DNA of 64,000 nucleotides from Apostichopus japonicus (lineage: Eukaryota > Echinodermata > Holothuroidea > Aspidochirotida > Stichopodidae). Positions within the stretch are counted from its first letter, which is position 1, and each line of letters begins with the position of its first letter. Made by a program: the position numbers and the translations under genes. Shown here in pieces: positions 10,401 through 62,400 of the stretch. The notes under the pieces are model-generated. The model worked only from the letters and a program-made list of their open reading frames with translations. It did not search any database and was not told the DNA's origin. The DNA lies in assembly GCF_037975245.1 (NCBI RefSeq), contig NC_092580.1:14855001-14919000 (forward strand). The letters are read 5' to 3'.

Positions 10401-13400
10401 ATGCTACAGGCTGAAAGGAGCGAGACAAAACCAATCCATTCATGTTCTTTATGTACATATGGTTACTTCATAATTTTAAGGGATATTTAGCAAGAAGATC
10501 AAGGCGAGTCATTTTATATAAATATATTCATCTGAAGATATGGACATTAATTGCTTGGTAGCAAGAAAAGTTTATTAAATTGCCTGTCTCCTGACAAAAC
10601 AGGAAATAGTTACAGTTATAGATATATTTTTTTCTCTAACCTGTAGGATAGAGTTTTACCATAATCTGTAGGATATAGTGTTATTATAACCTGTAGGATA
10701 CATATAGATTTACTATATATATGGGATACATAAAGTTTTACTATAACCTGTAAGATAAAATTTGACTATAACCTGTAGGATTCATATAATTTTACTATAA
10801 CCTGTAGGATACAGGTTTACCAAAACCTGTAAGATATATTATTTATATAACCTGTACGATCAAGTTTTATTATAACTTGTAGGATACATATAGCTAAACT
10901 ATAACGTGTGGCATATATCATTAATATAACCTGCAGGAAACAGTTTCACTATAACCTGTAGGAAACAGTTTTACTATAACCTGTAGGAAACAGTTTTACT
11001 ATAACCTGTAGGAAACAGTTTTACTATAACCTGTAGGAAACAGTTTTACTATAACCTGTAGGAAACAGTTTCACTATAACCTGTAGAAAACAGTTTTACT
11101 ATAACCTGTAGGAAACAGTTTTACTATAACCTGTTGGAAACAGTTTTACTATAACCTGTAGGGAACAGTTTTACCATAACCTGTAGGAAACAGTTTAACT
11201 ATAACCTGTAGGAAACAGTTTTACTATAACCTGTAGAAACAGTTTTACTATAACCTGTAGGGAACAGTTTTACCATAACCTGTAGAAACAGTTTTACTAT
11301 AACCTGTAGGGAACAGTTTTACCATAACCTGTAGGAAACAGTGTTACTATAACCTGTAGGACACAGTTTTACTGTAACCTGTAGGGAACAGTTTTACCAT
11401 AACCTGTAGGAAACAGTGTTTACTATAACCTGTAGGAAACAGTTTTACTATAACCTGTAGGAAACAGTTTTACTATAACCTGTAGAAAACAGTGTTACTA
11501 TAACCTGTAGGACACAGTTTTACTGTAACCTGTATGATATAGTTTTAGTTTACTTTGAAACAGGATAAAGCTTTTCTTTCATATCATGCCTCTCAAAGTG
11601 AGATCATCAAATAGAGAACTGAATTCCATAAGTTGTCTATTACTTACTGGAGCCAGTGCTCAGCTTGTAGAGATCCATTAATTTATCAAAGTTGAAACCC
11701 TGTAGGAGATGAAAAGCAGGAAATCAAAAGGAAGGTTTGTCAAGAGGGTGAAAATATTAGAGGCAAAATGGAGATGAGAAAATTACATGTGTATTAATTA
11801 TCAATATTTGCAGCAGCTTCTGGTGGACATGACTGCCATGGACAGCCCTGAGAAACAGTGGCATATAGGCTGTTGTGTTTTTTTCAAGTTATTGCATAAT
11901 GCCCATAGAAGAAGCCTTAACCCAAATTTGTAAAAAGACTATAAAGTCAAAAGCTTTTTTAAGCTTTCATAAGAATCACTGTATTGTTTTGTTAGTATTA
12001 CTCAAAACTATGAAAAAAAATGGCCTTATTTCACTACCCAGCAGATTCAATCTAGTAACTAACATGGTGTCTCTGTTAAAACAATGCAATTAGCTTATCT
12101 CTAAAATAGTGGGCAGTGCACGGCTGGCTTACAAAAAATACCAAATTCACAAAGTTGGAAAATACTAGGCATAAATACACCTAAATCTTCACAATATCTA
12201 CTGATTGTATATTTTGGAGAACAGGCAGGAAAGTAGCATAAAGAACTAAACAACAGACAAGACTCATGGATATACTTACTCCTGTAAAGGCAAGTCTACG
12301 ATGGGAATGATTTTCCATGGTGGTGAGCCGGACAGCCTCCTTGAAGATTGTTGTGTTTCCTCTACAAACGATGGCCTTCTGGCCGACCTGCTGCCCGCAC
12401 AGAGAACCTAGATAGAAACAAGAAGGAAGGAAAGTATCAGTGATCACTGATAGATGTTAAGAATATACCTTTGCAAAAACAGACATCTTTACTGAACATG
12501 AGGATTAATAAAAGTTTTAAATAAGAAAAGCAATTCTAAAGTGGTATGTAAATTCAGCATTGCAAGGTCACTAGCATGGAAGGTCACAAGGTCACTAGCA
12601 TGGAAGGTCACTAGCATGGAAGGTCACAAGGTCACTAGTATGGGAGGTCACTAGCATGGGAGGTCACTACCATAAAAGGTCACTAGCATAGGTCACAAGG
12701 TCACTTGCATGGAAGGTCACAAGGTCACTAGCATAGAAGGTTACTAGCATGGAAGGTCACAAGGTCACTAGCGTGGGAGGTCACTAGCATGGAAGGTCAC
12801 AAGGTCACTCGCATGGAAGTTCACTAGCATGAAAGGTCACAAGCATTGTTGCAAATATATGTCTTTATAGTGTCCTTCATATGATATGTGCTGCACATTT
12901 ATGAATTCATACTTTCTGTACAACTTACATAAGAGAAATATGCATTGCAATATATCAACCCTCTATAATGGTTATTTATGAGAATTTCATTTTACAAATA
13001 TGCAACTGATGGCAATGTTCCTCCTCACAAACATATACTTAAGGTACGTTAACTGTGCATTGGGACTCTTAACAATGTTCTCTGTAATTGATGGAAGCTA
13101 CTCAAAAACCACCTAAACCTGTATCTGCGAATTAAACAATAGCATCATGTTAGTACTCTGCACTTGTTAGATCTCATGAGCAATGTTTAGAATAAATGTA
13201 ATGTAGAACCTTGATCTCCTTACCATCTTCCTCTGTACCAACTATGGTCTGCTCTGTCATGTGTTTGAATACATCCAATATGCAGTTGGCCATGTAAGCT
13301 ATCTCCGAACCAAATCTGAAGGACTGAAGAAACCAGATTACAGGTACTTTCAAAAGCTGATTCAGGTTTGTTGCAAATACTGCATATTAAACAAATTCAA

Positions 13401-19400: not shown

Positions 19401-22400
19401 GCCTACAATATATATATATCCATGGAAAAGTAGTTACATGTCTGTTACGGTACCCACACAGGTCATCTTTACCCGCAAATCTTAAAGAGGTTTACTAAGA
19501 TTTTATGGATGGCTTAGTTGGGATATGGAACATTTCTTGGGGGAATTCTTGCTGCAGTCTAACGTTACTAATACATTGTATTAAAGGTGCTTAAATTTTA
19601 GCAGACTTTTGAATTCTTGTTTACACTTCAAGTAATCATGCAAAGAAGAATTTTTTCCCTGTTTACAACTACAAGAACACAATGACATATTTAATGCACA
19701 TATAGTATGACTAGACAAAACAATGAGTAATATGTTAACATTTATCATAATTGACAAAGGATTTTCATTACCTGCAAAGGCGATCACCTTCACCACTTCA
19801 TCACGCCGGTTGATACCTATTCGATGGTTAACAATACGAAGCTGCTCTTGAGTAAGAGGAAACTTTGATTTCCTGAGAAGATACAGAACACTTGAGGTAA
19901 CTAAAAGTGGTTGTGGGGAGTGCAGAGGAGCTGGGAAGAGGGGGGGGGGGGGGTAGAGAGTGGAAGGATTGAGCAGATGTGTAGAGGTATGGAAGTTATA
20001 ATCTCAGAGATAAAGGCTATTGTACTGATCGCACTGAGAACTATACTGATCTGAATGGAAGTGTTAATTTTGGTTTGGTTTGGAAATAAAACAGAGATGA
20101 TGATCATGGATTTATCGATATTAGCAAACATACTGAAGAAAATACTACTGCAGAAAACATCAACAAGAATGAATTAGTAAACCTGTTGTAACAGTATCAC
20201 ACATCGACCACATGCCATGTTCCATTAATGCATCACCAAACATGGAATTGCTTCGGTGACTGAATTTCATTTTATAGACTGGGTAGAAATAGTGTTCTTG
20301 AAGGTTAAAACTGGTTTATTAAGAACTGATAAAATCTGCATGCAGATCTGCAAATTCATTTCAGGTCAGGATATTTCTAGTAGATATTATTAACAATACT
20401 GATATTTTCACTATATAGTCCAGGGAGCAGGTTTACTCAATCAGACCAACTAGAGGTGTAGAATAATAATTTTTATTACCAGTAAATTGAAAAGGTTTCA
20501 TATCCTCCATAATACAATCAAATATTAATTCACAATGTATTAATGAACTGAACAATTTTCATGGTTAACATTGACAAAATGTATTCACCTTTGTTCCTTC
20601 CTTCCTTCTTTTTTCCCTCCCCCACCCCCTCCCCCAGCCTCAAGAATAAAACATACATATTAAAAGAGCAATTGTTTGAGCTGACATACCCTGCTAAGGC
20701 CTTCTTCCACTGAACATCTGGTGTGCTGTCTATGACTTGAACAGAGGAAGGTCTGACATCGTTTTCAAACAGGAATAAAGCGTAAAAAACACGGAAATGT
20801 AACCTAAAGGAATAAGGATAAAATCAAAATAGGTTGTTGACATGTCTCCCTGCAATAGATAATTAGATAATACCAAACACTCCCTTGCAACCACAAGCAG
20901 TATTCATTCTCAGTATTAAGTGGATCACAAATAAAAGTCGTGAAAAAGAAAGAACAAAGACACTGTCCATTAGAAATTAAAAATTTGCTAATGAAGCTGT
21001 AGCTCTAAGAATGTATAAAGAAAATTGATTATCATCCACTTTTAATGAAATCATTTCCTGGTGGTCTTTCATATCCATCTTTCATATATTCTTTTCAACA
21101 AGTTCTTCAGAGGTTGTGTTGTCTCTGCAGTGATAGCAGTAATGTTGCTGTACAGTAGAGTACCTCTGTCATATTTGAGGATGTATTTTTCTTTCAGGCA
21201 GGAAATTATTTAACAGACTTTAGAATGACATACCTTCTACAGAGGTTGTGTTGACTCTACAGTGATAGCAGTAATGTTGCAATACAGTAGAGTACCTCTG
21301 TCATATTTGAGGATGTATTTTTCTTTCAAGCAGGACATTATTTAACAGACTTTATAATGACATACCTTCTACAGAGGTTGTGTTGTCTCTGCAGTGATAG
21401 CAGTAATGTTGCTGTACAGTAGAGTACCTCTGTCATATTTGAGGATGTATTTTTCTTTCAGGCAGGACATTATTTAACATACTTTATAATGACATACCTT
21501 CTACAGAGGTTGTGTTGACTCTGCAGTGATAGCAGTAATGTTGCTATACAAAAGGGTATCTCTGTCATAGTTGTTGATGTAGTTTTCTTTCAAGCAGGAC
21601 ATTATTTAACAGACTTTAGAATGACATACCTTCTACAGAGGTTGTGTTGTCTCTGCAGTGATAGCAGTAATGTTGCCATACAGTGGAGTACCTCTTGTCA
21701 TATTTGAGGATGTATTTTTCTATCAAGCAGGACATTATTTAACAGACTTTAGAATCTTTATAATGACATACCTTCTACAGAGGTTGTGTTGTCTCTGCAG
21801 TGATAGCAGTAATGTTGCTGTACAGTAGAGTACCTCTGTCATATTTGAGGATGTATTTTTCTTTCAGGCAGGACATTATTTAACATACTTTATAATGACA
21901 TACCTTCTACAGAGGTTGTGTTGTCTCTGCAGTGATAGCAGTAATGTTGTTATACAGTAGAGTACCTCTGTCATATTTGAGGATGTATTTTTCTTTCAGG
22001 CAGGACATTATTTAACATACTTTATAATGATATACCTTCTACAGAGGTTGTGTTGTCTCTGCAGTGATAGCAGTAATGTTGTTATACAGTAGAGTACCTC
22101 TGTCATATTTGAGGATGTATTTTTCTTTCAGGCAGGACATTATTTAACATACTTTATAATGATATACCTTCTACAGAGGTTGTGTTGTCTCTGCAGTGAT
22201 AGCAGTAATGTTGTTATACAGTAGAGTACCTCTGTCATATTTGAGGATGTATTTTTCTTTCAGGCAGGACATTATTTAACATACTTTATAATGACATACC
22301 TTCTACAGAGGTTGTGTTGTCTCTGCAGTGATAGCAGTAATGTTGATATACAGTAGAGTACCTCTGTCATATTTGAGGATGTATTTTTCTTTCAGGCAGG

Positions 22401-25400
22401 ACATTATTTAACATACTTTATAATGATATACCTTCTACAGAGGTTGTGTTGTCTCTGCAGTGATAGCAGTAATGTTGTTATACAGTAGAGTACCTCTGTC
22501 ATATTTGAGGATGTATTTTTCTTTCAGGCAGGACATTATTTAACATACTTTATAATGATATACCTTCTACAGAGGTTGTGTTGTCTCTGCAGTGATAGCA
22601 GTAATGTTGTTATACAGTAGAGTACCTCTGTCATATTTGAGGATGTATTTTTCTTTCAGGCAGGACATTATTTAACATACTTTATAATGATATACCTTCT
22701 ACAGAGGTTGTGTTGTCTCTGCAGTGATAGCAGTAATGTTGTTATACAGTAGAGTACCTCTGTCATATTTGAGGATGTATTTTTCTTTCAGGCAGGACAT
22801 TATTTAACATACTTTATAATGACATACCTTCTACAGAGGTTGTGTTGTCTCTGTAGTGATAGCAGTAATGTTGATATACAGTAGAGTACCTCTGTCACAG
22901 TCATTGTTGAGTTTGTTGAGCCAGGATGGAGTAAGCAATCCAGGATTTCTCTGACATCTTTGACCATTTCAGCAAGAATGACAAGAGCTGCCACAACTGA
23001 CCAAGGATGAGGATGCTAATAAATGAAAGATATGAATATATATAGTTAGTTTAGTTTAGTAGAAAAAAGGATCAGGAGGGACACTTAAGTCTCCATCAAA
23101 GATCCTATAGAGAGAGGGAAAAAAACTGAAGACACAAACACTCAGACCCGATTACAATGCTTAAAGTGCTTGTCCAAAGCATTCTTAAACCCATTGACAC
23201 TACTTGCAAGTACAACTTTCTCAGGCAAACCATTCCACTCATTCACAACCCTATTAGAAAAAAAGTTATGCCGAATATTAATCCTACTATGCGACTTTTG
23301 GAGTTTAAGACAATGACCTCTAGTACGACTTCTGTTAGCAAACAAGAAATAGTTGGTAAAGGATAAATTGTCAAAACCATACACAATCTTGAAAACCTGG
23401 ATCAAGTCCCCACCTAATCTCCTAAGCTCCAGTGTGGTGAGATTTAACAGTTGTAACCGCCTATAATAAGGAACCCTCTTTAAGGAACTAATCATCCTAG
23501 TAGCCCTCCTCTGGACCTTTTCAAGTACTTCCTTATCCTTAGCAAAGTAAGGGTTCCAAGCCTGCACAGCATACTCCAGATGAGGCCTAACCAAGCCTAA
23601 CTACGATGTCCTCTTTCAGAAAACTGAAGTTCCTCTTGATCATACCTAAAACCCTATTACCTCTTTTAGCAGCTTCAACACAATGTTTAGAAGGTTGCAG
23701 AGATGAGTCAATGTAGATACCTAGGTCTCTTTCAACAGAGACTTCCTGTAACTCCACACCATTAAGATTGTATGTAAACTTTTGGTTACTACTACAAATG
23801 TGCATTACCTTACATTTAACAATATTAAAAAGCATTTGCCACCCCTGAGACCAGGAAAAAATCTTATCCAAATCCGCTTGAAATTTCTTGGAATCGCTTT
23901 TGGAAGAGACCTCAGAATACAATTTGGTGTCATCAGCAAACTTCTTAGCTTTACAAAAAATATCTCCGTCAATGTCATTTATATAGGCAACAAACAACAA
24001 GGGACCTAATACAGACCCTTGTGGAACCCCACTAGTAACGTTCTGCCAAGAAGAAGCACAGCCTTTAATTACCACCCTCTGTTCCCTATTACCAAGCCAA
24101 TTCCCGATCCAAGACAGTAAATTCCCTATATATATATTATATAACATATTTGTGTTTTTTTTTTAGACTGGTTTAAAGGTCAGTACTGAACTGGTATCAA
24201 ATTGTTAAAGAGTGATATGTTATCTTGCACTTTGTTCATATTAACATATTCATATTCTTCTTAGCGTTATTCTTATTGTCAAAACCTGATAGCAGATTTA
24301 AGCTGAAAAATTCCTTGGAATTGTTACCTCATCTTTCATCAAATCTGGCAAGTTTTCAGCGATTAAATCTTTGGCAAAACTGTAATTGGAATGTTTCTCT
24401 AAGTCTGCAATAGTTGATTCCCCTGGCAGTCTGTTTATTGTCGACAAATATCTGAAATGTAGGTTGAAATATATATTAGGGAAATATTTTATAGCTTTTC
24501 CACAAATGTTTCACAAGTTTGTTGACTTGAGAACACCAATGATGCTGTTAATAGCTGACTACTGGTTTGATTAGCATGTAATGAAGAGCTAAGCTGACTA
24601 ACAATTGAACATGAATAGATGACAAAACAGAATTGAAAACATAAATTTATAAGTCATGACATAAGACAGCAATTATTAAGCAAATAAAGCAGAAAAAAAA
24701 ATAATTAGGCCAACATGTGAGCCGACATGGATTGAAGAGATAATAACATCAATGAACTTGTGGCATCTGCTACCTGTTAGCTCAACATTGCACTGAAGTG
24801 GAGAATAACAAGGTATGATTGGATATATTGACATATCTCCTGTAAAGGGTTCTAATACCCAAAGTAAGGAATACCAGTGTCCACTTTCACATTACCAGTA
24901 CTATCGGCAACAACTGGCCATCACACTTTACATACATACAATATGGCTATGTGGTGTTCAGTAACTGTAATTGCCATTATAATAGCACCACACGGTGACC
25001 ACATTTAAAACCCAGTAATGTGCCTTCCATCATGGAACTGATTTGGTAATGAAATGTTTCCTTCCATTAATTAAACTTAAAAGGACTAAGATATTCATTG
25101 TGTATACTGCAGCTTTTAGCTTGGAGTACAAGTTTGTCATGAATATTTGGTTCATACTGTATTGCATGCAGATTCAGCGTCATTTACCTGATAACATCCA
25201 ACAGACCTGACTCCTCTGATGAGTCTTTTAGCGGTGAGGACCACGCCCTTGCATTCCCCTTACATCTCCTGTAAGCCTTCTTCCAAGTGATAAACTGAAA
25301 ATAAGAAAATTGCACGAATCAGAAGAACATTGTGAGTGCCTTAGTATGTATTAACAGATAACTAGAAATAGTTACTTTACATCTGCATGAATCTCACATA

Positions 25401-28400
25401 TACGTTATGACTTTAGTTTACAAACATTTCTACCGTCAGACTCCATCAGAGAACTTATCCGATCATCTAGGTGTTGTAACGCCTCGAGCCAGTGCCTCAA
25501 CTCGAGTCAGACTTGAGTCCCGATTTAAGGGCCTCTAGACTTGATTCTTTGTTTGCAAAAGATTAGAATTGATTCTAGTCTCTGGTTGCACTGGTACAGG
25601 CGAAAAAACTGTACTCAACTCGAGTCTCAATTCACTGTGACTCAACTCGATTCAAGTCTCTAGCTTTGGTGACTCGACTATCTTGAGTGACTTTTCATAA
25701 CAAGTATATGAACCATTAAGCATACAAACAAACATGAGACTGAAAAGAAACAATATCTGTAGGTCCAGTTACATAATGTATGCAGTTGCATTTGAGAGAC
25801 TTGTTATAATTAGGGACTTAAATTGACTCAACTTAGATATTAACTTAGATATCAACAGGGACTCGTGGTGACTCGACCTAAGTAATCAAGGACTCAATGT
25901 GACTTGAACGGACAAAAGAAGCTTGACGCTGACTCGCAATGTGCTAAGCAGAATACTGGACACGACTTGATATGTGAAATGTAGCTAGTATTCAAAAGAC
26001 TCCGACCAAGACTCAAAAATAAGGGACTCGATTACAACACTGCTAGATGTAGAAGCTGTTACATTCATTACAAATCACCTCAAGCATCCTGTACACTTTT
26101 TGCACACTGAAGTGAAGTTTACTGAGAGACAACGACATAAAAACAACATCTGTATGCTGAGGTTGGATTATCTATCAAAAACTATTAAATTGGTGCAAAC
26201 TAAATGAATCCATTCTGATGTGGGTCTTCCAAATTTTAGAATATTACAAAAAAGGTTTTTGGGGTTTAATAAACAGCCATGTTTGTGCCTGTGTGGAAAC
26301 CAATATTTATTATCGTTCAAATGAGGTGGTTTTATTTGAGCAGTAGGCCTAACATTCCCTGTGAATCTCATAGAAGAATGAGTAGCTTCAATGTTAAAGC
26401 AGCATTTTGCGTCCTTTTCTATGATTTTTCTCAACCTCACTGACTCTACTATGCCATAACGACATACATAACTAGCTTATCTATTTATATTTTACTTCAA
26501 ATGGTGGCATAAAAGTTGAAAAAATTGCAACTTTCAACTTTGTTGTTCTCCAAGATATTTTTCGTTGGGAACCCAATAAACCTCGCCCATAATATGAATA
26601 TTTAAACACTACGAACGTCATTGACAGATACGTAATATAACACCATGCTTGATTTGTGTACAGTCTATATGGCAGTTGTACCAGAGAGTTGCATAACAAC
26701 TCACTGGTTGTACCAACGCAAAGTCTTGAATCTATTTTTAGCAACGGCTCATAACTAAACCTGCATCTCTGATTGGTTGAATTCAAACTAGTGGGTTTGG
26801 GAACTGAATGCGATTAATTTTTTATGTGGAATACTCGCCAATTAACGTTTTTGGCAGGGAAAAACTTGGCTAATATCTTAATTTGCTGTTTGATGTATGT
26901 AAAAAAACTTGATGGACATGTCAAAAAGTAGAAAACGGCAACCAAATGCAAAATGCTCATGAATAAACATACTATTCACTGATTGGTGGAATTCGAACTA
27001 GTGGATTTGGAGATATGAAAACTTTGTCGAGGACACTTTTACTCGTTATCGACATAAATCGTTAATTACTCGCTAATTAACGCTCTTGGAAGGGTGAAAC
27101 TTGGATGGTATCTTAGTTTGCTGTTTTATGATTGAAACATCTAAAAAAATCGATGCACATGTTAAAAAGGTGTAAAAAGGCGACCCAACGCAAAATGCTG
27201 CTTTAAGTTTGTAATATTTTGAAAATTCTTTGGGCAAAAGTTCTTTTCAGAGAGTCTGGTACTTTCCAAAAGAGAAACATAAAAGTATATAGATTTCACT
27301 TTAACAACATGTACACTTGACTGTCTGATGTACAACATTACCCACCGATTAGTTGTACACTTTTCATATTTAGTCTCTAGCTCTTTCTATCTGATCATGT
27401 TCAATATCACTCACCGAATCATTAGCAATGACGTTCCACCAGCGATGACAAACCAAAGAGCAGCTTTGCAGCAGATCGAGGACTGAAATTCTACAGAAGA
27501 TGTTTTCCAATATTTCTAGAGGCAAATTGGCAAAGTAATCACGATTATCATCATCTTCTTCTTCTTCATCATCCTGTCCGTCGCTCACCAACCCAAATGT
27601 TCGGGCCTTCAGTGGGGTTGCAGCATCAGGCCCCAATTCTTCCACTTCATACAAAATCTCATCAGGGATTTCATCTCCATCTAACACATCATCAAAGTAT
27701 TCATCATCATTAGATGACTTCTGATTACCCGCCATGTTTCCATCTCTGTTAGTTTCACACCAACTTGTCACCATTGAAGTATTTCCTGACAATTCACTGC
27801 TTGAAGGACAGATCTTTTTGCACTTTCCATTTCCTTTCTTCACTACGGGTTGATTGATCAGCTTTCGATCAGCACCAAATTGATAAGTGTCGTCGTCACC
27901 TTCACCGAGGCAATCCAAAAGGGACAAACTCTCCTCACTACAAGAAGAGAGCTTTGAGTCATCATCATCTTCGCCGGGTTCCTCCGGCAAATATGCTTTT
28001 CTTCTCCCGGATGACTGAGACGCAGTCAGTTTACCATCTTCATCTATGTCATAATCTTCCATCCATTCATCTAGAGAATCGTTATCGAATGCATCCTCTA
28101 ATTCTTTGGTCTTTTCTTGAGACGGCTGTGAAGAAATCAGAGTTCCATCATCTGAAATATCGTATTCATCGAAGATATCTTCAATGGAGTCATTTTCAAA
28201 AGCCTCAAGACTACTCGTTAAATCATCCTTAGATTTGCAGATCACCTCTTGTTTGTCTCCTGAATCTGTTGAGGAACCAGTAATACTCTCTCCTGCTGGT
28301 GTAAGAGAGGTCCCTGGTCTGTGACTAAAATCTGTCCTCCTTTGATCAGTAACTGACTTGGGGTTCTTCAGGTTCAGATTCCATGTTTCGTTCAAATTTT

Positions 28401-29787
28401 TCTTCACTGACTTCCGTTGAGAATCTTCCTCAGGTTGACAACCTCCAGAGTTTCCAACATCTTTAGGGGGAGATTTTACAAAATACTTTGTCAACGATGT
28501 CTGTTTCAGAGGAGAGGGTGTCTTTGAAGGAGGTGAACTCGGTGGTACATACTTCTGAAACTTTGGAAGTTTACTATTCGAAGGAGAGGGCGTCTTTGAA
28601 GGAGATGAACTTGGAGGTACATACTTCTGAAACTTTGGAAGTTTACTATTCGAAGGAGAGGGCGTTTTTGAAGGAGATGAACTTTGAGGTACATACTTCT
28701 GAAACTTTGGAAGTTTACTTTTCGGAGGAGAGGGCGTCCTTGAAGGAGATGAACTTGGAGGTGCATACTTCTGAAACTGTGGTGTACTCTTTGAAGGGGA
28801 TGAACTTGGCGGTACGTATTTCTGAAACTGTGACAGTTTACTTGTCTCACTTGCTTTCTGTGGGGAACCAAGGGTACAAATGGATCGTGATGCGACTGCT
28901 TTCTTCGGTGTTTCATGGCTAGAGAGATCTTGTGTATTGCTTAGATTTCCTTTATTGGGAGACACACCCTGAGACCTTTGGAAAACAGTAAGCTTCTCTG
29001 GTGACTGATTAGGTATTACAGTGGAGGTTCCTTGAGAGATTTTATTTGGAGTAGAATACCTTTGACCTGTATGAGGCTCATACTCGCTCCTGCTTTTGGA
29101 ATGTGTGTGAACTCCACGCCATGGTGACCTTTTTGAGGTGTTAACCATTGGTTTAACATTCCTTTGTAAGGAATCTCCAGTAGTGGGCGGACAGTTTGAT
29201 GCCATCTGAAGGTTACTGACTTTGGATGAACTGGAAGATTTTCCATCACTTCTTTTAACTGGTGATGGCTTTGTCTCATCAGTTCTCTTTTTAAAATTGT
29301 TGGTTGTTGTTGGTCTGTTCGACAGCATTTGAGAGCTGGACTGAAAATGTTTCATTTTACTTGTTGGAAATTCCATCGACTTCCGTTTGGGACTTCCAAT
29401 TTGAGCAAAACCACTTGCATTGTAAACACTCGCTTGTATAGGTTGAGCTTTTGTACCTTTGCTGGGTGAGATGTACTGTCTCTTAGGATTACTGACTGAT
29501 TTTGTGACAGTTGATGGGCCACCATGTTTAAGTTCTGGCCTTGCCTCTGGAAGGAAGCATGAGCCCTGAGAGCGCCCTCTTTGAGCTGAACTTATATTAA
29601 CATTTTTCTCACGAGTTGTTGACCTTTGAAATAACTGTGGATTGGTGAGAGATGCAGCGCCTTCTGGCGTATTTGAATAATGAAGACATTCCCGAGGACC
29701 CATCCATATCTTACGTCTCTTGGAAGATGGGTCCGAAGAATCAATGTCTCTTTTAAACTGGTCTTTTCGGGAATTATCCTCAGTCAT
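7318..29787 (-). CDS. FBH1: F-box DNA helicase 1, whole gene (20 coding exons)
   Basis: Spliced exons, in order: 29787-27415, 25294-25188, 24451-24328, 23015-22828, 20803-20690, 19872-19772, 19402-19324, 18860-18771, 17912-17678, 16507-16429, 15706-15620, 14761-14625, 13323-13224, 12407-12280, 11699-11648, 10410-10225, 9733-9614, 9093-8978, 8289-8158, 7473-7318. All borders are GT/AG and every phase joins, giving 4704 nt and 1567 aa. Known role: 3'-5' single-strand DNA translocase and SCF ubiquitin-ligase subunit in the nucleus that restrains RAD51 and acts at stalled forks. Visible: PIP box 429-436, F-box about 752-790, Q motif LTQEQ, Walker A AGTGKT about 1002-1007, DEAQ 1185-1188, motif III LVGDPHQQIYSFRGA, motif IV SFRFG, motif V TTAHKAKGLEFDTV about 1398-1411, motif VI YVAVTRAKK about 1448-1456, and C-terminal CxxC pairs. 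It is longer than the vertebrate protein (about 1040 aa) because of the N-terminus. A 5' UTR exon must lie upstream, since an acceptor sits at 29814. Confidence 0.95.
8158..8289 (-). CDS. FBH1: FBH1 coding exon 19: first Cys pair
   Basis: 44 codons in phase 0: EHFKFPLSTKLFLDSESNGQ then CLDCGQAIASQQRVA. The CLDC pair is the first half of a probable C-terminal zinc ribbon. Donor ATT/GTGAGT. Confidence 0.9.
8978..9093 (-). CDS. FBH1: FBH1 coding exon 18: motif VI
   Basis: Encodes EDINLPEDEKNLIYVAVTRA then KKSLMLNENLKKCLGKIS. R1453 is the motif VI arginine finger. Duplicated at 33627-33742. Confidence 0.95.
9614..9733 (-). CDS. FBH1: FBH1 coding exon 17: motif V
   Basis: Encodes IVLTTAHKAKGLEFDTVQLA then TDFSIFSLNVVPVEGGDVI. 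KGLEFD is helicase motif V. The copy at 33045-33161 has ALEFY in place of GLEFD. Confidence 0.95.
10225..10410 (-). CDS. FBH1: FBH1 coding exon 16
   Basis: Encodes CSIRNDFYRKMQSFSNLEVY and onward to ETVENLQSA, the helical stretch before motif V. A copy with a 1-nt insertion sits at 32343-32529. Confidence 0.94.
10640..11540. repeat. 25-bp minisatellite in FBH1 intron 15, about 35 copies
   Basis: Consensus on the plus strand is ATAACCTGTAGGAAACAG plus TTTTACT, most regular from about 10920 to 11530 and degenerate to the left. On the FBH1 sense strand each unit reads CTGTTTCCTACAG/GTTAT, a polypyrimidine tract plus CAG acceptor consensus. The real exon 15 acceptor (TCTCCTACAG/GG) shares its core. 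Confidence 0.95.
11648..11699 (-). CDS. FBH1: FBH1 coding exon 15 (52 nt)
   Basis: Encodes GFNFDKLMDLYKLSTGS. Acceptor CTCCTACAG/GGTTT, donor A/GTAAGT. The acceptor closely resembles the core of the 25-bp array that begins about 110 nt downstream in intron 15. Confidence 0.88.
12280..12407 (-). CDS. FBH1: FBH1 coding exon 14
   Basis: Encodes SLCGQQVGQKAIVCRGNTTI and onward to HRRLAFTG, the start of the 2A domain. Donor GGA/GTAAGT. Confidence 0.92.
12565..12845. repeat. Irregular AGGTCACTAGCATGG minisatellite in FBH1 intron 13
   Basis: About 17 copies of AGGTCACTAGCATGGA, alternating irregularly with the short form AGGTCACA, between exons 13 and 14. The direct AGGTCA words are spaced 8 to 25 nt. 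Confidence 0.92.
13224..13323 (-). CDS. FBH1: FBH1 coding exon 13: motif IV
   Basis: Encodes SFRFGSEIAYMANCILDVFK and onward to GTEEDG. SFRFG holds the motif IV arginine. The exon must begin at the upstream of two CAGs (TTCTTCAG/TCCTTCAG) to keep Ser-Phe. Confidence 0.94.
13989..14057 (-). repeat. tRNA-derived SINE fragment in FBH1 intron 12
   Basis: On the minus strand a box-A-like TGGTCAAGTGGTTGTTAGG is followed by a box-B stem-loop, GCAGG-TTCAAGT-CCTGT. No matching acceptor 5' strand is found, so this is a SINE head or tRNA relic. A 32-nt direct duplication (AATTCAAACAGTCATGCACA...) at about 13682 and 13815 lies nearby. Confidence 0.5.
14625..14761 (-). CDS. FBH1: FBH1 coding exon 12: motif III
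   Basis: Encodes AQQDVLLNQPIPKILVGDPH then QQIYSFRGARNAM. Two AGs lie 8 nt apart; only the upstream one (exon starting CTCAGCAG) keeps the frame and yields TPAQQ. Confidence 0.95.
15620..15706 (-). CDS. FBH1: FBH1 coding exon 11: Walker B (DEAQ)
   Basis: Encodes GYLKVYQLSKPIISDVQ then CLLIDEAQDLTP. D1185-E1186 are the catalytic acidic pair of a superfamily-1 helicase. Confidence 0.96.
16166..16367. repeat. ~116-bp tandem duplication with a perfect palindrome, FBH1 intron 10
   Basis: CAGGAACCATAGCATTTTAT starts both copies (16166 and 16282) and both contain CATTTGATAGTTCCAAGTC. At the junction ATGGTTCCTGT-AA-ACAGGAACCAT (16268-16291) is an 11-bp perfect palindrome. Confidence 0.85.
16429..16507 (-). 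CDS. FBH1: FBH1 coding exon 10
   Basis: Encodes AILKDAEYLWGRMIDEDDRE then AQITHDG, the conserved stretch just before Walker B. Donor G/GTAAGT. Confidence 0.94.
17678..17912 (-). CDS. FBH1: FBH1 coding exon 9
   Basis: Encodes YGHKLTFDLKPYTIKDLLPE... through AVLTHHDRM, the helicase 1B insert region. Phase 2 in, phase 0 out; donor ATG/GTATGG. Confidence 0.93.
18771..18860 (-). CDS. FBH1: FBH1 coding exon 8: motif Ia region
   Basis: Encodes TVQVEASRTFPGNTECRTTH then SLAFEKVKN. The segment CRTTHSLAF is the UvrD motif Ia/Ib type (TxHxLA). Confidence 0.93.
19324..19402 (-). CDS. FBH1: FBH1 coding exon 7: Walker A
   Basis: Encodes GTGKTTTLIKFAEANRYLHLL and then YVAFNK. GTGKT is the ATP-binding P-loop. 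Donor AA/GTAAGT. Confidence 0.95.
19772..19872 (-). CDS. FBH1: FBH1 coding exon 6: Q motif and start of Walker A
   Basis: Encodes KSKFPLTQEQLRIVNH...VVKVIAFA and ends in phase 1 inside the glycine that opens GTGKT. LTQEQ is the UvrD-family adenine-binding Q motif. Confidence 0.95.
20690..20803 (-). CDS. FBH1: FBH1 coding exon 5
   Basis: Acceptor TTCCTTTAG, donor CAGG/GTATGT. Phase 2 to phase 2. Encodes LHFRVFYALFLFEND... leading into the helicase core. Confidence 0.92.
21105..22827 (-). repeat. 132-bp tandem array made of the 3' end of FBH1 exon 4 plus its donor
   Basis: TACCTTCTACAGAGG recurs at 21231, 21363, 21495, 21627, 21769, 21901, 22033, 22165, 22297, 22429, 22561, 22693 and 22825 (the true exon 4 donor). 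The period is 132 bp, once 142, with a partial copy from 21105. On the sense strand each unit carries about 66 nt of exon 4 (EVLYC..TLLLSLQRQHNLCRR in frame), the AGAAG/GTATGT donor or a GTATAT variant, and intron sequence. Reading through is blocked by TAA in the intronic part. Intron 4 therefore holds about 13 near-identical decoy 5' splice sites. Confidence 0.95.
22828..23015 (-). CDS. FBH1: FBH1 coding exon 4 (3' end is the parent of the 132-bp array)
   Basis: Acceptor TTTATTAG, donor AGAAG/GTATGT. Encodes HPHPWSVVAALVILAEMV... to LSLQRQHNLCRR. The last ~66 nt plus the donor are repeated in intron 4. An intronic LINE ends only about 30-80 nt upstream of its acceptor. Confidence 0.93.
23040..24147 (-). 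mobile_element. 5'-truncated non-LTR retrotransposon (LINE) in FBH1 intron 3
   Basis: Minus-strand translation 24147-23587 has reverse transcriptase motifs: GVPQGSVLGPLLFVAYINDI (fingers/palm) and KKFADDTKLY (catalytic FADD). A second frame, 23594-23142, continues as VRPHLEYAVQAWNPYF...RRATRM and FFSNRVVNEWNGLP, the usual C-terminal end of such ORF2 proteins. The two frames meet at 23587-23594 after a short deletion, so the copy is dead. The 5' part of ORF2 (endonuclease and RT N-terminus) is missing. It is inserted in FBH1 orientation; (TA)-rich sequence flanks both ends. The clade (CR1/Jockey-like) is not settled by what can be seen. Confidence 0.92.
24328..24451 (-). CDS. FBH1: FBH1 coding exon 3
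   Basis: Acceptor ACATTTCAG, donor GAG/GTAACA. Encodes YLSTINRLPGESTIADLEK..., the helical region between F-box and helicase. Ends in phase 0. Confidence 0.92.
25188..25294 (-). CDS. FBH1: FBH1 coding exon 2
   Basis: Acceptor TTTTCAG, donor CAG/GTAAAT. Starts in phase 0 and ends in phase 2. Encodes FITWKKAYRRCKGNARAW..., the linker just after the F-box. Confidence 0.92.
25450..26055. mobile_element. Non-autonomous DNA element with ACTCGA subterminal repeats, FBH1 intron 1
   Basis: The left end CATCTAGGTGTTGTAACG (about 25465-25482) and the inverse of the right end, CATCTAGCAGTGTTGTAATC (about 26029-26048), form terminal inverted repeats. The interior is crowded with GACTCAACTCGA, ACTCGAGTC, GACTCGAC and variants in both orientations. 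The CAGTGTTGTAA-type end suggests hAT, but an 8-bp target duplication is not clear. Confidence 0.55.
26760..27200. repeat. Imperfect direct repeat of about 210-235 bp, FBH1 intron 1
   Basis: Both halves share, in order, CTGATTGGT(T/G)GAATTC, AACTAGTGG, CCAATTAACG or GCTAATTAACG, AAACTTGG, ATCTTA(A/G)TTTGCTGTTT, ACATGT and CAAAATGCT. The halves begin near 26769 and 26979. No coding content. Confidence 0.75.
27415..29787 (-). CDS. FBH1: FBH1 coding exon 1: disordered N-terminus, PIP box, F-box
   Basis: 791 codons, ending at donor GTGAGT (27414). The N-terminal 320 residues are basic and rich in SP/TP sites (SPKR, SPVKR, SPWRG), as in a CDK-regulated tail. Residues 321-424 hold five FQKY modules (F at 321, 338, 362, 386, 410; spacing 17 then 24), each followed by a Ser/Pro/Thr linker. 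The canonical PIP box QTSLTKYF (429-436) follows. Two acidic modules (about 529-556 and 566-593), both of the form AFxNDS...DYDI/EYDI...DG, are an internal duplication. A second acidic stretch (about 697-750) leads to the F-box LPLEILENIFCRISVLDLL, which should bind SKP1. The start codon has A at -3. It is the first in-frame ATG of the exon, but it follows a short upstream ORF. Confidence 0.95.
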
Positions 29788-30779: not shown

Positions 30780-31560
30780 TAGGCCTAACGTTAGTTATTA
30801 ATTGGCTCACGATATCGTCTTCTCCCAGTATACTAGTGCTAACTTCATCTTTGAAGACTCATGCACTTGATTAACAGGTTGGCTATCCACAAAGCAACAC
30901 GGAAATAAATCCGATCAATATGAAATAACTAATTGCTTACTATATATACAAATGGGTGCTCATACCAGATTTCAGCGAGTTTCATTGAGATTCAGAGATG
31001 GAAATGTGAGACAATATTGGAGCAAAACATAAACAGCGTCACACGGAGATCACAGTGAGTGAGTTACGGAGATAGTTTTGCGAAATTAGGGTGCATACAG
31101 TTAATACATTACACCCTAGTACATAGGTACAGTGAAGTAATATTAAATAAGGATACTTATAGCAAACATGGCGTTTGAAAGGATCGATATGGCACTACAG
31201 AACGTTCATATTATATGCAAAGTTTTAACGTCCGTTTGATCATATGACACATCAATTGTAACATTTGTATTGTACTCATAGAAATTGAAGTAGGGAGAAT
31301 GACGTCATGCGACAGAACTTCACAGAAGTCACTCATATAACTGGTGGCGCTTTGCTTGTACGGCAAGCAGAGCCGTATATTTAGATATACGGCTCTGACG
31401 GCAAGAAAGTACCGGAGCGTAATACAAAAACTACGTCTTGGCATAACTAAAGTAATAAAGTTGACATAAATCACTCGAAATGGTGATATCGTGTGCCCCA
31501 TTTGTGTGCCAAAGTCGTACAAAGTTGGCAGTGGACTGCAGTTTCACAGGTCATTCTTAG
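30780..31560 (-). promoter_or_regulatory. FBH1: Probable FBH1 promoter / 5' UTR region
   Basis: The AG acceptor at 29814 implies an upstream non-coding exon. This stretch is the nearest CpG-bearing, repeat-poor DNA upstream and contains a perfect CRE octamer TGACGTCA at 31300-31307. Another perfect octamer is at 30338-30345. The exact start site and exon cannot be read from the sequence. Confidence 0.3.
31360..31405. mobile_element. 30-bp hAT-like relic with 8-bp target duplication
   Basis: ACGGCAAG (31360-31367) and ACGGCAAG (31398-31405) flank a 30-bp palindrome (31368-31397) made of CAGAGCCGTATAT, loop TTAG, ATATACGGCTCTG. The 13-bp arms are perfect. CAGAG-type ends with 8-bp duplications are the hAT superfamily signature. 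Only the two terminal repeats remain. Confidence 0.8.
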
Positions 31561-32089
31561 GAAGCGATAGTATAGGCAATTACATAGGAATAATAACTTT
31601 ACTAGTGTCGTCTGCTCAGCTGCTGTATTGTTATGCACTGAACTTGTACATAGTTAGGCTAGCCTAGGCCCCTAAACCGGCTGCGGCTGTCCTTTCGAAT
31701 GCGATATGACTAAGGCCTAAAGACATATATTATCTCCACCTCATTTTCCTTAAAACTGTATCCGTAACGATATATCTACTTGACAGAATAGCATGGGATG
31801 ACTGTCATGATGTCCTGGGCTTACTCTAACAATTCAATATTAGAAAAATAGGCTTAGCTAAACTTAGGCCTAGCCTGGTATGATTGAACAGCCTTGCCCT
31901 TGTTCTTACTTAGGTTAGCCTTAAGCCTAGAAAATTTCAGTATTTAATTTATCTAGAATTGTACAAATTTTCAAACACATCATCCATTTGCAACATATTC
32001 TATGGGTATAAGTATAGACAAAACAATATTTGTAGCATGTAGGCCTATGTCATTCTAAAGATTATATTTAGGCTGTTATAATGTCCTGT

Positions 32090-34920
32090 CTGAAAGACAA
32101 ATACATCCTCAAATTTTTAAGAGGTACTCCACTGTACAGCAACATTACCGCGATCACTACAGAGACAATACAACCTCTGTAGAAGGTATTGCTACAAAGC
32201 AATTTATGTCCATATCTTCAGATGAATAGATTTATATAAAATGACTGCACTTGATCTTCTTCCTAAACTCCCCTTAAAATCATGAAGTAACCATATGTAC
32301 ATAGAGAACATTGAATGGAAGGATTTGTCTCGTTCCTATCAGCCCGTAGCATCGGGAATGACTTCTTCAGAAAGATGCAGTCCTTCTCGAATCTGGAAGT
32401 CTATGCTCGTAATGCAGACGATGTGGAACTTCAAGGATTGATACAAATCGTGAGAGTCTACAATCATCGTCTTCCAGAAGTTATCGAGAAATTCAAGAAA
32501 GAAACAGTGGTCAAATCTCCAGTCTGCGAGTAAGAATATTTCCAAAGCCATATTTCTTTAATATCGTTGTAGGGTTAAAGATCAGGAGAGTCACAAAACT
32601 TGAAACAGACAGTGTCAAGTTAGCTTGGTTCAACGTTTTCAAAGTGGATTATTCTGAACAAAGTTCTTGATTGAGGCAAACCTCTCATAAGGCCTCCAAT
32701 TGATAGCTTGTGTCAATGTTATTCAATGGATTGCAAAACGGAACTAGAGCTTGAGGAGCTTGAAATGAAGGTGTATATGTAGAGCCATGCCCTTTTGTCA
32801 TAGCTGGCCTGCCATAGAATTTGGACACTACAGGGCAAAACAAATGCCATGTCCTTTTGAATCCAGCCGAGAATACTGTCTCATATCTGGATCAACAGAA
32901 CAAGATCCCTATTGTTTTTGGTGGTGATCAAAGGTCAGCAGAGGTCAAACTTTGAAAATGATCATGCAGTACATCTTAAGAGAAATGGATCAAGATTAGT
33001 GTTGGATGTGTCCTAAATTTCCTTACAGTGTACTTTCTTTACAGCTATTGTCTTACCCACAGCACACAAAGCCAAGGCACTGGAGTTTTACACTGTGCAA
33101 TTAGCAACTGACTTAAGCTTCTCTCTAAATGTTGTACCAGTTGAAGGAGGAGATATTATAAGTATTAAGTTTTTCCCCCTTCTCTTTATCATTATTTTTC
33201 TTGTCCTTTGAAGTATCATTTATATATGTCTGTTGTCCTTAAACAGATACTGTTAACTTTGTGTGTGTATTCTAGGGGGACTACGTAGCACAGTTTTATG
33301 ATGTTTAATTATATATTATTTAAATGATGTGTTTCTCTTTGAAATCATAGATTTAACATTGACCATTAATGTTCTTGAGTATTAGCTTCCAAGTGAACTA
33401 TAAACAGTTTTTATGTTTGCTGCTATCAATTATGATCAATATTAATATGATGTTGACTATTTTAATAATATTCTTTTCTTTAGACTGCAAAGATGCAGGT
33501 TATGATCAATTTTATTTTCAGATTGAAAAACAAGAGTTCTTTGTTATTTTGTAGTTTTCCAGTATTTCCTAAACAAATAAAAAACAAAAGTTAATTGGAA
33601 TTATTTTCATTTTTGTTTTATGTCAGCTGAAGATATCAATCTACCAGAGGATGAGAAGAATTTAATTTACATTGCTGTAACCAGAGCGAAGAAGAGTTTG
33701 ATGGTAAATGAAAACCTGAAAAAGTATCTTGGCAAAATTTCAGTGAGTACTAAAAGATATGTTACAAAAGGAAGATCCTTAAAGCATGACAGCCACCCTC
33801 TGCATACTGCATTAAAAGTCCTTTAGCCCCCTTACACAAACAAAGGTAAGTACTGAGCACTTTTAAAACTCTTCTGTAGGGTACCATTGACAAATCTCAA
33901 TAATATTGATAGATTTCCAATACCAAGTTTTCAAACCGTAAATGTTTTTATGTAGGTCAAGCAAGTTCAAATATGAATGCCTTGTCAAAATCTCAACAAG
34001 AGATGACTGTAGATGGCTTTTCGATTGTTTCAATGCATGTGATGCTGTGTTTCCCATTTTACATCGGTGCTGTGAGTGTGTTATCATTTTAATAACATGC
34101 TTACAGTGTGTGTGCCTAGTTCACACGATTGCAGTGAAAGTGATAGCAATTTGCATCTGATGACTGTCCTCCAAAGGTCTTCAGCTATTATTTGTGCACC
34201 CCCCCCCACAAAAAAATGAACTCTGGCTCTGGGGGCCGGGAGAGTGTATGACCTATTTACGATTTATTAGTTAAAGGCTACAATGGCAATGTGGCATAGA
34301 GACACATGTAGTACTGCTTGTTGAGGTGAAATTATGTGTTGACTTAAACATCTAGCAGTTTAATCAGATATCATTCACTGTGTCATAAGGGATCTCTGGA
34401 TTAATAATTGGAAGTATTTTACTACTACAGTTTACAACAATATTGTACTGTTTATTGTCATAGAAATGCTTTGGAAAGATAATTTGAATTATTCAGGAGT
34501 AGTTAACTCTACTTTACACTTGAACACACTCTAGATAAAGAATTGGAGAACTGATGTTTGACAAGGTTGTCTGAAAGGTTTCCGAAATATTAAATTCATT
34601 TACAAGTAAATATTAGAGTCAAGCTTATTCTCCTTAAGACTTTGTTGGTGAATATGTCTTCATGTGTACTCAAAATAATAATGTATGGAATTTTTTCATT
34701 ACAGTGCAATAGACCCTGTTCCACGGTGACAGCAGAGTACTTCCATGGAAGTTTTCTAATATTTTCTTCAGTAAGCTTTATGATCTACAGATTAATACAT
34801 AATTAGGATGAATTATTGTATTTTATTATCCCTACGTAGCATCTATTATTTTCTCATTGTCCTTTTACTCTATGATTTAATTTGTAGTGGAATAAGAGCA
34901 ACAAACTGTGAACAATATTG
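32090..34920 (+). pseudogene. Inverted, chimeric partial duplication of FBH1 (exons 16-18)
   Basis: 32187-34920 is the inverse copy of FBH1 sequence from about 10566 to 5990. Introns are kept, so it is not a retrocopy. Copied exons: 32343-32529 (exon 16, 187 nt against 186: +1 frameshift), 33045-33161 (exon 17, 117 against 120; motif V KGLEFD changed to KALEFY) and 33627-33742 (exon 18, full length). All their splice AG/GT are intact. The segment 32090-32186 is one copy of the 132-bp exon-4 donor unit, joined directly to intron 15 sequence. Exons 19-20 are missing, and the copy resumes at 34555-34920 with the FBH1 3' flank. Confidence 0.9.
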
Positions 34921-51175: not shown

Positions 51176-51311
51176 ACCAAATGTAGTGTTAGCAATATTT
51201 TGCGCGAATAGTCCTTGACAATTCAATTATTTTACAAAATACCTTCATCTTCAAATCTATTTCAAAGGGCTATTGATAGCATATTTTTACATTGATTTTT
51301 GTTCCCCGGAG

Positions 51312-51669
51312 GGAGTGGGCCGAATCCCGGGGGTAGTGCAAGACCGGACCAACCCGTGGCTAGGACGGAGCAAGCTTCTATTCCATAGCCCATGTGCAAA
51401 AATAAGTCATACAAGCGACTCCATGAGTCGCGATTCAGATATTATGCTGAAAAGAACAGATACTTTTTAAGAAAAAGTCGCCTAGGAAAGAACCTGGGCA
51501 TGTAAACCAAAGAACTGAACGACTGATGCGCTTCTAACCCCAGACTCCTTGCATCGGGACTGTGTGATCATCGTCAGGTGTGCATCACCATTCCCCTCGA
51601 AAAGGAACAGATACTACACATGATCTTTGACAAAAGGCCGAGTAGCGATCTTAGCCAAAAGGCCGAAAG
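51312..51669 (-). ncRNA. U2 snRNA-derived sequence, rearranged (pseudogene or snRNA-derived element)
   Basis: On the minus strand from 51649: GCTACTCGGCCTTTTG, AAGATCATGTGTAGTATCTG, i.e. U2 nt 4-46 with few changes, including the GTAGTA branch-site-pairing element. After a ~125-nt unrelated insert, U2 resumes with AAGTATCTGTTCTTTTCAG, AATATCTGA, an Sm-like ATTTTTG, ATGGAATAGAAGCTTGCTCC and a degenerate 3' hairpin ending near 51312. The words AGTATCTGTTC(C)TTTTC flank the insert on both sides. A second partial 5' end, TTTCGGCCTTTTGGCTAAG, sits just upstream (51651-51669). With these breaks it is not a working U2. Confidence 0.85.
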
Positions 51670-61920: not shown

Positions 61921-61984
61921 GATCTTTTGCCATTTCCTCCTTCCATTCTGAAGTAGAAATATTAGAAAACGAGTATTATTTCTC

Positions 61985-62400
61985 AACAGTTGCTGTGGCG
62001 CAATGGGTAGTGCCTGTACCTGGAGTGCAAGACAAACTCAATGTCTAGGGTTCAAACCCCAGTTAAGGCAGTTTTCCTTTTACTATTCTTATACCTCTTT
62101 CCTTCCATTCTGAAGTTCAAATATTAGAAATGAGCTATATTTCTCAACAGTTACAGTGGCACAGTGGGTAGTGCCTGTACCTGGAGAGAAAGACTAACTC
62201 CTTGTCTAGGGTTTGAACCCCAGTTAAGGCAGTTTTCCTTTTACTATTCTTATACCTCTTTCCTTCCATTATGAACCTTAAATATTAGAAACGAGAATTA
62301 TTTCTCAACAGTTGCTGTGGTGCAGTGGTTAGTGCTCTGGACTGAGAGAGACAGAACAAACACACTGTCATGAGTTCAAGACCCCACCAGAGCCTTTTAC
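61985..62400 (+). repeat. Three tandem ~160-bp units each with a tRNA-like sequence
   Basis: Units carry TGCTGTGGCGCAATGGGTAG (box A, about 61991), then CTAGGGTTCAAACCCCAG (box B, about 62045). They repeat at about 62151/62205 and 62313/62370 (the third diverged). Units 1 and 2 have a long variable-arm-like stem, AGAC...GTCT, and a following spacer TTTTCCTTTTACTATTC. Stems are imperfect, so these look like tandem tRNA-derived SINE units or tRNA relics. Confidence 0.75.

Follow-up and report, generated by a model that had tools for sequence, protein, structure and literature searches.

A minisatellite across the exon 4/intron 4 boundary of FBH1 in Apostichopus japonicus repeats the splice donor of the exon

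We analyzed a window of 64,000 nucleotides from the holothuroid Apostichopus japonicus (NCBI RefSeq assembly GCF_037975245.1, contig NC_092580.1, positions 14,855,001 to 14,919,000 of the forward strand; all coordinates below are those of the window), whose minus strand carries FBH1 (F-box DNA helicase 1) and, across the boundary between exon 4 and intron 4 of this gene, a tandem array that repeats the end of the exon together with its splice donor. The identity of the gene is supported by an F-box in its 5′ open frame at 29826-27370 on the minus strand (Pfam F-box, E = 2e-6), in an exon whose donor is at 27414 on the same strand, and helicase exons were found downstream of exon 5 by tblastn, using a human sequence as query. 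Exon numbers follow those of the original prediction, an earlier reading of the window; one exon, which should lie between exon 3 and the exon with the F-box, could not be placed. Exon 4 occupies 22828-23015 (minus strand, 188 nt), as judged from its TAG acceptor, with 12 pyrimidines in the 16 bases upstream, its open frame and the alignment of its join to exon 5. The true 5′ splice site, AAG/GTATGT (22822-22827, minus strand), joins it in the FBH1 frame to exon 5 (20690-20803, minus strand), assigned on its open frame and the same alignment, and whose acceptor TTCCTTTAG is preceded by 14 pyrimidines in 16 bases. When 22828 is joined to 20803, the resulting sequence matches human FBH1 through the junction (PDB 9xzj, E = 1.6e-15). 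A Pfam search of the same join found no family. Two further features of the gene may be mentioned here: the remnant of a reverse transcriptase in the stretch that separates exon 3 from exon 4 (23142-24162, minus strand; Pfam RVT_1, E = 2.3e-12, frame 23590-24162), and a 72-bp repeat of 3.8 copies (28510-28782) in the large 5′ coding exon, which corresponds to a 24-residue protein repeat.

Intron 4 is 2024 nt long and consists mostly of the array, which Tandem Repeats Finder placed at 21103-22897 with a 132-bp unit, 13.5 copies and 95% matches. Each unit spans the exon-intron boundary, being made up of 70 bases from the end of exon 4 and 62 from the start of intron 4, and the units run in tandem from 22897 to 21112. 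There are 14 copies in all, numbered here u00 to u13 when the unit is cut as exonic then intronic: the real exon end (exonic 70 nt of u00, 22828-22897, minus strand, similarity to the next unit starting at about 22897), followed by the intronic body (21172-22827, minus strand), in which repeat finding, a motif scan and unit alignment identify the intronic part of u00 and 12 copies with AAG/GTAT(G/A)T, and a last copy that, by unit alignment, ends before the donor (21112-21171, minus strand). The motif scan of the minus strand thus yielded 13 donors: besides the true one, at 22827, there are 12 farther downstream, at 22695, 22563, 22431, 22299, 22167, 22035, 21903, 21771, 21629, 21497, 21365 and 21233. 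Seven of these 12 read AAG/GTATGT, like the true donor, and five AAG/GTATAT, the latter including the three nearest to the exon. The original prediction of a ladder of near-identical donors, GTATGT or GTATAT, downstream of the true one is therefore borne out, as is its estimate of about 13 copies of the exon end within intron 4, except that 12 and not 13 of the intronic copies keep the donor. Its statement that the period is exactly 44 codons fails at one place, where neighbouring donors are 142 bases apart, the other 11 of the 12 intervals measuring 132, and the exon codons (EVLYC) that it placed in every unit are altered or interrupted in three of the 12 donor-bearing copies, one reading EVLHC, one EIPFC and one containing an in-frame TAG.

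To judge how the copies have diverged, we compared them column by column, now with the unit cut as intronic then exonic, a cut that also applies to the divergence counts and to column 44 of the diverged unit described below. Among the 12 donor-bearing copies, a set that leaves out the exon copy, the donor-less u13 and that diverged unit, variable columns are as frequent in the exon-derived part (10 of 70) as in the intronic part (9 of 61; Fisher p = 1). On these sequences we see no sign of coding constraint. A coding meaning of the 132-base period was accordingly rejected: the equal variation, the in-frame TAG, the altered EVLYC codons and the 142-base interval all show that 44 codons is not a coding feature, and the intronic part of the unit holds an in-frame stop as well. 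Units u01, u02, u03, u05 and u06 are identical, while distal units are more diverged, differing from proximal ones by up to 14 bases, a pattern such as tandem-repeat turnover produces. One base separates the exon copy from u04, but three (columns 24, 44 and 75) separate it from the adjoining u01-u03. This suggests, without proving it, that the exon end belonged to a block that was recently exchanged. Weighing against free exchange is column 44, where an A is present in the exon and in the diverged unit but in no intronic unit of the array; here the exon may have kept an older base.

The diverged unit lies outside the array, at 32046-32189 on the plus strand, and matches individual array copies at 80-91% (blastn). 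A search of the whole genome assembly (671.6 Mb in 35 contigs) found the unit in at least 15 places, namely the 14 of the array and this one, such counts being lower bounds. The outside unit is joined to a partial inverted duplicate of the 3′ exons of FBH1 (32189-33831, plus strand), a sequence match to 10564-8888 with 87.5% identity, and weaker matches continue to 34952. At the upstream end of the duplicate the unit is fused straight to the intron that precedes the exon at 10410, and since the exons that should lie between them are missing, the duplicate is probably a pseudogene. A 25-bp minisatellite of about 36 copies is found in an FBH1 intron at 10629-11547, near the breakpoint of the duplicate (10564). 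In the unit at 32046-32189, intronic sequence precedes the exon-derived part, so the tandem arrangement must have existed by the time of that duplication. This order indicates that the array is old, at least as old as the neighbouring partial duplication of FBH1, and that the extra donors have been tolerated since. No significant further array copy, and no significant match to exon 4, was detected upstream of 32046 by local alignment, in which 31900-32052 scored 182 against two units (shuffles: mean 146.7, standard deviation 13.8, maximum 202) and exon 4 plus a unit scored 165 against the stretch upstream of 32046 (shuffle mean 146.2, maximum 179). The stretch upstream of exon 4 scored 384 against 31400-32052, with a shuffle maximum of 376, in a gap-filled alignment that the other tests do not support.

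We then considered what the use of another splice site would entail. Pairing with the 5′ end of U1 small nuclear RNA (snRNA) was predicted at -6.8 kcal/mol for GTATGT, that is, for the true donor and seven decoys, and at -5.7 for the GTATAT of the other five, whereas ten other FBH1 donors scored from -4.5 to -10.2. A second GTATGT is located at 22807-22812 (minus strand), 15 nt past the true donor, where its use would add five in-frame residues and where predicted U1 pairing is weak (-4.2). When exon 4 is lengthened to any downstream donor and joined to exon 5, the same TAA is reached after 71 codons in the exon 4 frame in 12 of 12 cases, before the helicase domain, so that FBH1 is truncated on paper. 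Messenger RNAs (mRNAs) with such an early stop are targets of nonsense-mediated decay. The truncation anticipated by the original prediction upon read-through thus stands, but its conclusion that the helicase would be lost whenever a downstream donor is used applies to the extension of exon 4 only. If a unit is instead spliced in as a separate exon, from an AG located 21 bases before its donor, the resulting 21-nt exon is in frame and free of stops in all 12 units and adds seven residues that repeat a stretch of the protein, QHNLCRR, with one residue changed in 2 of the 12. Other AGs of the unit give a frame-shifted 23-nt exon (AG two bases earlier) or a 64-nt exon, each leading to a stop in 12 of 12 units. 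The best unit AGs have 11 pyrimidines in the 16 bases upstream, compared with 11 to 14 in the seven true acceptors measured.

Arrays of this kind are not without precedent. Minisatellite-like tandem duplications of exon-intron boundaries have been described in the globin genes and Adh3 of amphioxus under the term 'mirages', which is credited to Canestro et al. 2002. Their units measure 150-160 bp in the globins and 10-72 bp in Adh3, and AG/GT signals are present in many of them; the clusters vary in length, the units evolve in concert with divergent edges, and regular splicing is reported to be undisturbed (PMC3087553). The FBH1 array shares with them the position across an exon-intron boundary, the presence of splice signals on many but not all copies (12 of 13 intronic ones keep the donor) and concerted evolution inside the cluster with a divergent edge. 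It differs in the gene concerned and in copy number, with 13 copies in the intron where the haplotypes of BflGb6 have 6 and 3 (Adh3 and the globins BflGb6 and BflGb9 being the amphioxus cases compared), and it is known from the sequence of a single assembly, whereas splicing and length variation have been reported for the amphioxus mirages. The human 6-16/IFI6 minisatellite (Turri et al. 1995) reportedly has a 12-bp unit. It contains multiple donors, and two downstream repeats are used, giving three mRNA species (PMC4526556). As in that case, the FBH1 unit holds the donor of the exon itself; unlike it, the extension of exon 4 stops after 71 codons in 12 of 12 cases and would provide no further protein-coding mRNAs. 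In human segmental duplications, De Grassi and Ciccarelli 2009 retained, after manual inspection, 27 cases of introns modified by tandem repeats, most of which were minisatellites. These cases resemble ours in involving minisatellite expansion, including at exon-intron boundaries (PMC2812944). Theirs change the annotated gene structure among paralogues, while exon 4 of FBH1 and its splice position seem unchanged. Finally, Rogers-type intron gain, as in ATP2A1 and potato RdRp, likewise copies a splice signal by tandem duplication (PMC4974935). In that kind of gain, donor and acceptor both derive from the duplicated segment, whereas the acceptor at 20803 lies some 300 bases beyond the FBH1 array, outside the repeat, so that the duplication did not supply the acceptor of intron 4.

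Taken as a whole, the data make it likely that the array is a near-neutral minisatellite of the mirage type and that its first donor serves for most of the splicing, any leakage to unproductive mRNA being minor. A founding 132-bp segment would by chance have covered the exon 4/intron 4 boundary, and tandem duplication and unequal exchange, selectively near neutral, would then have enlarged the array inside the intron. Exon 4 is presumably defined from its own acceptor, so that the nearest donor, 22827, which gives the 188-nt exon, would prevail over donors that give exons of 320 to 1782 nt, and the rare use of a downstream donor would yield an early-stop mRNA lost to nonsense-mediated decay. 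The predicted U1 pairing of the three nearest decoys, all GTATAT and weaker than the true donor, favours the main use of the latter, and we also count in support the undisturbed splicing reported for the amphioxus mirages (PMC3087553). Some observations weigh against this explanation. The true donor of exon 4 is weaker in predicted U1 pairing than six of the ten other FBH1 donors and is matched by seven of the 12 decoys, which leaves room for substantial leakage; in 6-16/IFI6, the human case most like this one, downstream repeat donors are indeed used (PMC4526556); and the test of equal variation comprises 19 variable columns, from which weak constraint would escape.

The same leakage is the basis of an alternative in which the ladder diverts a share of FBH1 pre-mRNA, dependent on copy number, to stop-containing, decayed mRNA and in this way sets the FBH1 level. 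It draws support from the early stop common to all 12 extensions and from the seven decoys with the exact AAG/GTATGT of the true donor, yet the lack of any sign of constraint on the copies, the weaker type of the nearest three decoys and the undisturbed splicing reported for known mirages (PMC3087553) make it unlikely. We are slightly more reserved, and hold it to be decidedly unlikely, about a joint reading that combines such a copy-number-tuned diversion, and possibly an in-frame 21-nt exon, at the RNA level with an exon 4 end that evolves partly in concert with the intronic repeats at the DNA level, the latter part being proposed because the exon end is the first unit of the array, one base from u04 and three from u01-u03. 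The proposal that a unit already serves, or could come to serve, as a small cassette exon within intron 4, the seed of a mirage-type exon or intron gain, would agree with the donor and the AG 21 nt before it in each unit, with the seven stop-free residues in frame in 12 of 12, and with a pyrimidine content (11 of 16) equal to the lowest of the seven true acceptors. Exons as short as 21 nt are hard to define, and this general difficulty, together with the competing AGs for 23-nt and 64-nt exons, which lead to stops in 12 of 12 units each, leaves this proposal very improbable.

A role in generating isoforms, with exon 4 extended to downstream donors and longer proteins produced, would be expected from the anatomy shared with human 6-16/IFI6, in which the donor of the preceding exon is inside the repeat unit. 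Longer isoforms through the 12 repeat donors are nevertheless ruled out on the reference sequence by the common TAA, and an in-frame extension is left only to the GTATGT at +15 (five residues), whose predicted U1 pairing of -4.2 is weak; we thus consider this role extremely improbable. The copy number itself might be an artefact of assembly, as near-identical units are easily mis-assembled and aberrant assembly has been reported for one of the mirages in the draft genome of amphioxus (PMC3087553). Against this speak the contiguity of the present assembly (671.6 Mb in 35 contigs), the graded divergence of the units and the independent diverged unit at 32046-32189, and we find an artefact highly doubtful.

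The near-neutral minisatellite also requires no special explanation for the capture of a donor. The 12 longest arrays of the window (at least 273 bp), picked from 49 Tandem Repeats Finder rows, make up 11.4% of its length, and when four founder segments, matched in size to those of the arrays within the gene, were placed at random, the chance that at least one held a complete donor was 16%. This estimate used 15 donor positions, which were taken from the ends of exons by eye and are in part approximate. In a window so rich in minisatellites, such a chance means that neither selection nor a special mechanism is needed for the capture. Scanned against Rfam at gathering scores, the window gave no match for the array, but a U2 snRNA and a tRNA elsewhere, the former as a full-length match at 51310-51489 (minus strand, 96.3 bits). 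Separately, a 161-bp tandem repeat of 2.8 copies is located at 61938-62386; its consensus includes GGTTCAAACCC and TGGCGCAGTGGG, which resemble tRNA promoter boxes, and it is perhaps a tandem short interspersed nuclear element.

Minisatellites lying over an exon-intron boundary are thus a kind already described, to which the FBH1 array adds a member with a long ladder of donors. With 13 near-identical donors for one exon and one acceptor, it is a natural experiment on donor choice by the spliceosome. Beyond this, it is a long representative of a class of minisatellites that has received little study, in what is otherwise ordinary repeat turnover.

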